Source of the DNA: Xiphophorus maculatus
Lineage: Eukaryota; Chordata; Actinopteri; Cyprinodontiformes; Poeciliidae
Assembly (NCBI RefSeq): GCF_002775205.1
Contig: NC_036443.1
Location: 31,893,717-31,957,716, forward strand
DNA length: 64,000 bases
Reading direction: 5' to 3'
The notes beneath the pieces were generated by a model. The model ran no database searches. It was not told the DNA's origin and worked only from the letters and a program-made list of their open reading frames with translations. Shown piece by piece: positions 52,501 through 55,500 of the stretch; within the stretch, counting starts at the first letter, position 1, and every line of letters starts with the position of its first letter. Both the position numbers and the translations under genes were made by a program.

Positions 52501-55500
52501 AGAACTGAAAACCCAGTTCTATCAGAACCCGGCCAGGAATGAGATAAAATATCATAAAAGTGTTTAGTGATGAAACTAATAATCAACTGATAGCTGAATG
52601 TGTTTCTGATGCCAGCAGCTGATCCGGTTCTGTTGGATCAGAACCGGGTCAAACATGATCATTTCTAACTGAACAGGGAACTTTTAATTTTCAATGAGAC
52701 AGGACACACATAAGGGCCCGAACGGATCAGAACCAGAACCGTCAGCTGGATTTGCTTTGTTTTATGCTTCTGCTAAACCATATTGATCCATCAGTAAATT
52801 CCCAGACGATCGTCTGTCGGAGTTTAAGAACTTTTACTAATTATTTGAACTGATGAGACGATAAAGTGAGAATTAATACAACTATTGATTATTGTTCTGA
52901 TCAATCGGATATTATTGCTTACATGCAGCTTCCTGTGTTTACTGGCCGTTGATCAGTTCTGGATCAGTCGGATCAGAACGATGCTGGGCTCGTACTCGGT
53001 TCTGGTTGAGTTCTGATCATGCTGCTGCTGTTCTGGTTCATTTCTGGCTTCTGAAGAGTCCGGCTCTGTTTTGCTTTCAAACTAGCAGCTCCGGTTCTGG
53101 ACCGGTCCATGTCTGACTGGTCTCTCTGCTCCCCCAGCTTTGGACCCGTCCATCACCCTGTGGCAGTTCCTGCTGCACCTGCTGGAGGACCAGCGCCAGC
53201 GCCACCTGATCTCCTGGACCGGCGAGGACGGAGAGTTCAAGCTGCTGGACGCAGAGGAGGTGGCCCGTCTCTGGGGGCTGCGCAAGAACAAGCACAACAT
53301 GAACTACGACAAGTTGAGCCGCGCACTGCGCTACTACTACGACAAGGTGAGCGCTATGCTACCGCTACGACAAGGTGAGCGCTATGCTACCGCTACGACA
53401 AGGTGAGCGCTATGCTACCGCTACGACAAGGTGAGCGCTATGCTACTACTACGACAAGGTGAGCGCTATGCTACCGCTACGACAAGTTGAGCCGCGCACT
53501 GCGCTACTACTACGACAAGGTGAGCGCTATGCTACCGCTACGACAAGGTGAGCGCTATGCTACCGCTACGACAAGGTGAGCGCTATGCTACTACTACGAC
53601 AAGGTGAGCGCTATGCTACCGCTACGACAAGTTGAGCCGCGCACTGCGCTACTACTACGACAAGGTGAGCGCTATGCTACCGCTACGACAAGGTGAGCGC
53701 TATGCTACCGCTACGACAAGGTGAGCGCTATGCTACCGCTACGACAAGGTGAGCGCTATGCTACCGCTACGACAAGGTGAGCGCTATGCTACCGCTACGA
53801 CAAGGTGAGCGCTATGCTACGACAAGGTGAGCGCTATGCTACGACAAGGTGAGCGCTATGCTACCGCTACGACAAGGTGAGCGCTATGCTACCGCTACGA
53901 CAAGGTGAGCGCTATGCTACCGCTACGACAAGGTGAGCGCTATGCTACCGCTACGACAAGGTGAGCGCTATGCTACCGCTACAACAAGGTGAGCGCTATG
54001 CTACCGCTACGACAAGGTGAGCGCTATGCTACCGCTACGACAAGGTGAGCGCTATGCTACTACTACGACAAGGTGAGCGCTATGCTACCGCTACGACAAG
54101 GTGAGCGCTATGCTACCGCTACGACAAGGTGAGCGCTATGCTACCGCTACGACAAGGTGAGCGCTATGCTACCGCTACGACAAGGTGAGCGCTATGCTAC
54201 CGCTACGACAAGGTGAGCGCTATGCTACCGCTACGACAAGGTGAGCGCTATGCTACCGCTACGACAAGTTGAGCGCTATGCTACTCGACAGTGAGCTACG
54301 CTACGACAGGTGAGCGCTATGCTACCGCTACGACAAGGTGAGCGCTATGCTACCGCTACGACAAGGTGAGCGCTATGCTACCGCTACGACAAGGTGAGCG
54401 CTATGCTACCGCTACGACAAGGTGAGCGCTATGCTACCGCTACGACAAGGTGAGCGCTATGCTACCGCTACGACAAGGTGAGCGCTATGCTACCGCTACG
54501 ACAAGGTGAGCGCTATGCTACCGCTACGACAAGGTGAGCGCTATGCTACCGCTACGACAAGGTGAGCGCTATGCTACCGCTACGACAAGGTGAGCGCTAT
54601 GCTACCGCTACGACAAGGTGAGCGCTATGCTACCGCTACGACAAGGTGAGCGCTATGCTACCGCTACGACAAGGTGAGCGCTATGCTACCGCTACGACAA
54701 GGTGAGCGCTATGCTACCGCTACGACAAGGTGAGCGCTATGCTACCGCTACGACAAGGTGAGCGCTATGCTACTGCTACGACAAGGTGAGCGCTATGCTA
54801 CCGCTACGACAAGGTGAGCGCTATGCTACTCCTACGACAAGGTGAGCGCTATGCGATACCGCTACGACAAGGTGAGCGCTATGCTACTCCTACGACAAGG
54901 TGAGCGCTATGCTACCGCTACGACAAGGTGAGCGCTATGCTACTCCTACGACAAGGTGAGCGCTATGCTACCGCTACGACAAGGTGAGCGCTATGCTACT
55001 CCTACGACAAGGTGAGCGCTATGCTACCGCTACGACAAGGTGAGCGCTATGCTACTCCTACGACAAGGTGAGCGCTATGCTACCGCTACGACAAGGTGAG
55101 CGCTATGCTACTCCTACGACAAGGTGAGCGCTATGCTACCGCTACGACAAGGTGAGCGCTATGCTACCGCTACGACAAGGTGAGCGCTATGCTACTCCTA
55201 CGACAAGGTGAGCGCTATGCTACCGCTACGACAAGGTGAGCGCTATGCTACCGCTACGACAAGGTGAGCGCTATGCTACTCCTACGACAAGGTGAGCGCT
55301 ATGCTACCGCTACGACAAGGTGAGCGCTATGCTACCGCTACGACAAGGTGAGCGCTATGCTACCTTCTTCTTGCAGAACATCATCAAGAAGGTCAGCGGT
55401 CAGAAGTTCGTCTATAAGTTTGTGAGCCAGCCCGACCCAGCGCCAGCAGACGGGCCTCGCGGCGCTGAGGAGGTCCCGAAGAAAGACGCCTGCGACCCAA

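Follow-up and report, generated by a model that had tools for sequence, protein, structure and literature searches.

An elk1 intron of Xiphophorus maculatus composed almost entirely of tandem copies of its own 5' splice site

Introduction

How is an exon closed when its 5' splice site is followed by dozens of copies of that same site? The choice among identical 5' splice sites has usually been studied by means of engineered duplications. The elk1 gene in the 64,000-nucleotide stretch of Xiphophorus maculatus DNA analyzed here (the window; contig NC_036443.1, forward strand) offers a natural counterpart, with about 70 near-identical donors, one acceptor and a readout in every frame. A preliminary description of this intron proposed that donor choice would switch between ELK1 and a truncated product, and that the copy number could tune elk1 output or the array could bind U1 snRNP in bulk. 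This reading as a whole is partly supported, while a 70-step switch using many donors, with copy-number tuning or a U1 sponge, is unproven and not the likeliest reading. With a probability of roughly 60%, we propose that the array is a minisatellite seeded by the donor, that donor 1 is dominant and that a small leak to the donors nearest to the exon produces stop-containing RNA. The type of structure is not new, as it is preceded by the human ABCA7 and IFI6 repeats.

Results

The elk1 exons and their paralogs

Judged by its ETS domain, which is closest to that of ELK1, the gene is elk1 (ETS family, TCF subfamily). The protein encoded by the exon upstream of the array matched the Pfam Ets family (7.5e-28), and its best match in the PDB was ELK-1 (1dux, 2.1e-34), followed by ELK-4 (1.4e-31); the C-terminal regions of elk1 and the neighboring genes were judged by eye only. 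This exon is 209 nt long, and its last codons, CGC TAC TAC TAC GAC AAG, are followed by GTGAGC (Table 1). At 53140-53142 the window reads TTG where the paralogs L020-L022 (MDNS, MDSA, MESS) align an initiator ATG, so that elk1 would have to use a non-ATG codon or begin in an exon farther upstream, unless its start has been lost or misassembled.

A search of the same genome for the Ets family gave 41 matches, from which paralogous loci were obtained. The paralogs L021 and L022 have an intron at the same codon boundary as elk1 (522 nt and 97 nt, respectively), both free of an array, and L020 has a donor at this position, its acceptor not being picked up by the search pattern. The elk1 array is thus a derived expansion, and the intron predates it. 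An intron created by the array itself, i.e., intron gain by tandem duplication, is rejected because L021 and L022 share the intron position and L020 the donor. The last 20 bases of the exon of L021 are identical to those of elk1, and this paralog lacks an array, which indicates that the exon end alone is insufficient to force one.

Table 1. Coordinates of the elk1 features within the window.
Feature	Position	Strand	Basis
elk1 exon; Ets profile positions 1-65 of 81; ends ...YYYDK in phase 0 at donor 1	53138..53346	+	Pfam, PDB
28-bp minisatellite; usual unit GTGAGCGCTATGCTACnnCTACGACAAG, nn = CG, TC, TA or TG	53330..55364	+	TRF, unit list
Donor 1, AAG/GTGAGC; sole donor yielding ELK1	53347..53352	+	Splice translation
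Donors 2-70; premature stop in 69/69 when joined to 55377	53375..55353	+	Splice translation
Exact 43-nt copy of the exon tail, preceding donor 6	53477..53519	+	Sequence match
Another exact 43-nt copy of the exon tail, preceding donor 10	53622..53664	+	Sequence match
Polypyrimidine tract and acceptor, CTTCTTCTTGCAG; all of the intron that lies outside the repeat	55364..55376	+	Sequence
Following elk1 exon; donor 1 keeps the frame	55377..55562	+	Translation; paralog exons L021 and L022 match here

Architecture of the donor array

The elk1 intron (53347-55376) comprises 2,030 nt and is minisatellite except for its final 13 nt. TRF described the array with a period of 28, 73.2 copies and 93% matches, and placed it across the exon/intron junction (53346/53347), with a unit that covers both the end of the exon and its donor. 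Formally, the array begins within the exon, at a GCTAC at 53330, and a second GCTAC follows at 53358, 28 positions away, i.e., exactly one unit. The repeated segment of 28 bp consists of the last 17 nt of the exon plus the first 11 nt of the intron, or of close variants thereof. The intron contains 70 GTGAG donors, 68 of them with the identical 9-mer AAGGTGAGC and one each with CAGGTGAGC and ACAGTGAGC; the common 9-mer scores 11.07 of a maximum of 12.63 bits. The proposal that this intron repeats its own donor about 70 times in tandem is therefore borne out.

The regularity is somewhat less strict than had been described. When the intron was cut at each GTGAG, 62 of the resulting 70 segments were 28 nt long, while the other eight, departing from the 28-bp unit of the preliminary description, measured 19, 22 (twice), 29 (the last one), 30, 50 and 61 (twice) nt. 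The units of 28 nt are mostly of the consensus type (49), with 8 TC, 3 TA and 1 TG unit and one with another substitution. Likewise, a strong donor does accompany nearly every unit, but the exact match to the exon end that was also ascribed to each unit extends mostly over 10 nt only (61 of the 69 extra donors); it reaches 17 nt at three donors and 43 nt at two, and the remaining three match over 5, 2 and 0 nt. Units 2-5 recur as units 6-9, so that a block of 145 bp is present twice in succession, and CG and TC units alternate toward the 3' end of the array. Selection on the donor within the units was considered as well and is not retained, as the unit list gives no signal either way, the unit being nearly uniform except for one dinucleotide.

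The 12-mer GACAAGGTGAGC occurs 67 times on the forward strand of the window, always within the array, and not on the other strand. A full count over the 704-Mb assembly gave 139 occurrences in forward and 64 in reverse orientation, whereas the reversed pattern yielded 22 and 15. After subtraction of the 67 elk1 copies, the two strands are alike (72 and 64), which makes a second array of this size unlikely in the assembly.

Consequences of donor choice for the reading frame

The translation of the predicted splice products agrees with the preliminary description. Only donor 1, in phase 0, carries the frame into the exon at 55377 and gives full-length ELK1. Donors 2 and 3 were said to frameshift into early stops, and these are found 22 and 34 codons beyond the exon end, respectively; for longer extensions a TGA after 19 codons had been predicted, and it is present for all of donors 4-70 (67/67). 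The three frames of the array contain 24, 25 and 24 stops, and the longest open stretch is at most 38 codons. Stops occur in all frames because GTGAG contains TGA and the unit length of 28 equals 1 modulo 3. Splicing from donors 69 and 70 would remove only 57 and 29 nt, respectively. There is a lower limit on workable intron size, and introns this short probably fall below it.

Splicing signals within the intron

The real acceptor is preceded by 16 pyrimidines per 20 nt, compared with 9-11 for the AGs of the array (first 39 listed). No match to the branch-site pattern YTNAY was found in the 2,030 nt of the elk1 intron, and in its final 100 nt T-N-A occurs only in the donor copies, with the A at -26, -54 and -82. 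Based on this absence, the intron as a whole could splice poorly. The predicted RNA fold of 53300-53430, which includes donors 1-3, was no better than that of shuffled sequences (z -0.57), and on this comparison the idea that a particular RNA fold masks donors or makes them accessible is rejected.

Discussion

Comparison with known donor-site repeats

The array lies at the 5' splice site of an exon and its units carry the donor, as in the donor-site minisatellites of the ABCA7 and IFI6 type; elk1 is a very long case of an already described kind of repeat. According to the parts of the ABCA7 report used here (PMC5954066), intron 18 of the human gene holds a VNTR of about 12-427 units of 25 bp, which flanks the exon and includes its donor. 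The RNA comprised canonical splicing, use of a cryptic exon acceptor (14 ± 6%), skipping of exon 19, and retention of one unit, which frameshifts into a stop and remained at 2 ± 1% independently of the array length. With a longer array, exon 19 skipping alone rises and total expression falls. According to the same parts of the report, the lengths of the PCR products were determined with a 600-base size standard, and very long extensions could therefore have escaped. Both genes thus have a minisatellite at the edge of an exon that includes the splice donor. On the other hand, the ABCA7 unit, as given there, starts at the GT of the donor, whereas the elk1 units add at least 10 nt of the exon end at 66 of the 69 extra donors, which makes almost all of its copies complete donors. 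The two cases also differ in gene and organism, elk1 being a fish gene with an array that occupies almost the whole intron and with two longer copies of the exon tail, and the RNA data being from ABCA7.

In human IFI6 (6-16), a minisatellite with multiple donors has been described (Turri et al. 1995, via PMC4526556), and splicing also proceeds from two of its downstream repeat units, so that three mRNA species arise (PMC4526556). As far as the portions of that source considered here extend, this repeat resembles elk1 in supplying multiple splice donors, while in elk1 the extensions all reach stops. Minisatellites at exon-intron boundaries also alter gene structure in human segmental duplications (PMC2812944), but these repeats average 4 units of 30 bp, were sought among recent paralogs and, in the text consulted, are not presented as donor ladders. 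Tandem genomic duplication of AGGT leads to intron gain (PMC3443670, in the part drawn on here); splice-site sequence is multiplied there as in elk1, but the elk1 intron is older and no intron was gained. Our literature search, little directed at fish and including few subscription papers, returned no fish case, no donor array of nearly a whole intron and no ladder series within one genome.

Proposed origin of the array

Considering the structure of the units, the array would have been born when the GCTAC of the exon was joined to a GCTAC of the intron 28 bp downstream, which would have been the first duplication. The TA-type unit corresponds to exon and intron joined at this motif, and it is the natural founder because TA-TG-CG and TA-TC are one-step neighbors; the array is now mostly CG. 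An ordinary, shorter intron would then have lost its interior, as the non-repeat remnant could not have worked as an intron. Later growth to about 70 units would have come from slippage and unequal exchange, in which the exon also took part. Such exchange between exon and array would account for the two 43-nt tail copies, since the exon has CTACGACAAGTTGAGC upstream of CTACGACAAGGTGAGC. The recurrence of the 145-bp block and the alternation of CG and TC units may be read as the usual signs of minisatellite turnover. Growth would have taken place in a minisatellite-rich region close to the contig end, which lies 312,624 bases from the array. As judged from the sequence, a birth by microhomology and a later deletion at the 3' edge of the array are indistinguishable, because the original interior of the intron is gone.

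Proposed dominance of donor 1 and its alternatives

Within this array, we propose that donor 1 would be chosen mostly because it closes the normal 209-nt exon and has real exon context, by analogy with ABCA7. A small fraction of transcripts would use the nearest repeat donors (donor 2 or its neighbors) and would then be lost via stops, given that GTGAG includes a TGA and that the unit length, which is no multiple of 3, places this TGA in every frame. The net effect on elk1 output would probably range from neutral to a mild, length-dependent loss, and with respect to array length an overall weakening of the intron may outweigh a long ladder. The dominance of donor 1 is derived from the analogy with one gene, ABCA7, and from the need for ELK1. 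Competing identical splice sites are subject to a proximity rule, under which downstream donors could beat donor 1. Both this rule and the downstream donor use in IFI6 would count against the dominance of donor 1. As the two oppose the ABCA7 analogy, elk1 RNA will be informative either way.

Among the alternatives, the one that holds up best, although we regard it as unlikely, is an effect of length as in ABCA7, in which a growing array would lead to skipping of a neighboring exon, intron retention or lower expression rather than to laddering. The rise in exon 19 skipping and the fall in expression with a longer VNTR (PMC5954066, in the parts used here) point in this direction, as do the lack of YTNAY in the elk1 intron and the confinement of T-N-A to donor copies in its last 100 nt; the ordinary pyrimidine-rich acceptor (16/20), however, argues against it.

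A rheostat or switch, with many donors in use and the copy number setting the share of stop-containing RNA and the ELK1 dose, or with U1 snRNP being tied up, appears rather doubtful. The identical strong 9-mer at 68 of the 70 donors, the stops reached from every extra donor (69/69) and the two repeat units used as donors in human IFI6 (PMC4526556, in the portions considered) are what would be expected of it. Yet in the ABCA7 report, as far as it is used here, only one-unit retention was seen, at about 2% whatever the array length, in a sizing assay that could miss long extensions. Moreover, the fold around donors 1-3 is ordinary (z -0.57), and in the unit list, which carries no statistic, the donor positions vary no less than the other positions of a near-uniform unit.

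An array that is real, but whose length or some of whose structure is an assembly artefact, is improbable. While 2 kb of near-identical 28-mers and a 145-bp block repeated in succession (units 2-5 and 6-9) invite this suspicion, the window contains no N, the unit variants follow an order along the array instead of being scattered, the contig has the size of a chromosome (C1, 32.26 Mb), and unrelated genes bear similar ladders. Recursive splicing, with each CAAG/GTGAGC serving as acceptor and then as donor, is very improbable: AG/GT is present at nearly all unit junctions, but the acceptors are poor (9-11/20 pyrimidines for the first 39 AGs listed, against 16/20 for the real one), the intron has no YTNAY, and the units do not qualify as recursive splice sites, which have a polypyrimidine tract directly before the donor.

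Donor ladders elsewhere in the genome

Clusters of three AGGTGAG were found 364 + 188 times in the genome, many of them supplied by elk1, against 61 + 92 for the reversed pattern, and CAGGTGAG 282 + 111 times, against 15 + 8. This excess of donor clusters is no more than suggestive, as the reversed-pattern control alters the dinucleotide content. From the first 100 genome places listed, 29 loci were fetched, with 32 AGGTGAG clusters, and for 10 loci one upstream peptide each, its frame picked by eye, was used for gene identification (Pfam for all 10 peptides, PDB for 4). The genes of three loci were identified, one by Pfam (1/10, L015) and two in the PDB (2/4, L010 and L048), and these three matches reach the first donor or end two residues short of it. 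The other seven peptides had no match in Pfam, nor, for L009 and L061, in the PDB; L009 we take, by eye, to resemble an EDEM mannosidase. The COMP/thrombospondin-like gene at L015 (Pfam COMP, 3.2e-6) has 19 donors, mostly in steps of 17 bp, and its CAGGTGAG ladder (1296-1640 of the locus; C3, about 1.07 Mb) starts exactly at the exon end, with the next exon after the array. NUP205 (L010; PDB 1.2e-20) and GPATCH1 (L048; PDB 5.9e-22), both without a Pfam match, have 3 donors each, at 29 and 33 bp, respectively.

Extra donors run into stops within the array in the COMP-like gene (17/18), GPATCH1 (2/2) and L009 (2/2). None do so in NUP205 (0/2), and self-termination is thus not universal among ladders. 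Among the matches listed, 23 of 35 clusters lie at most 2 Mb from a contig end, against 13% expected; the count covers 35 of 36 clusters (that on C9 left out), and these are not all independent. That donors repeatedly seed minisatellites across the lineage, often near chromosome ends, and that the growing arrays are mostly self-terminating decoys whose length sets gene output, is a doubtful generalization that we put forward only tentatively. The mostly self-terminating nature of such decoy ladders would follow from the stop that GTGAG carries in one frame. If this decoy reading were true, the elk1 dose would vary between individuals with the copy number.

The same CAGGTGAG units were observed at C5:32.9 and C6:28.5 Mb, and others were shared between C1:31.97, C6:29.58 and C13:14.90 Mb. 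Their distribution suggests that some donor-like minisatellites may travel inside dispersed repeats.

A single genome thus presents a graded series of 3, 3, 19 and 70 donors across genes. If the copy number varies, donor choice can be measured directly as a function of the distance and number of donors and of the exon context, and the elk1 array would be an animal parallel to the Alzheimer-risk repeat of ABCA7.

Other repeats in the window

Several short introns in the region of the window seem to be filled with repeats. At 3924-4484, a 23-bp minisatellite, whose unit does not include the GT, starts within a few bases of an apparent donor (...GCCGTGTAAGACACACC) in what by eye is a MAGI-like gene. 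The minisatellites at 6674-7083, 9578-10144 and 23378-23695 end within about 10 bases of apparent acceptors, in genes that by eye are MAGI-like and CXXC-zinc-finger-like. GGTTCT-type repeats make up nearly all of an apparent 84-nt intron at 34256-34339 (minus strand), in a gene that looks CDK20-like by eye. A 15-bp minisatellite, TAAGTAACGGGGTAC, with 137 copies of mixed units, occupies 37619-39665, outside recognized exons, and has the length of the elk1 array.
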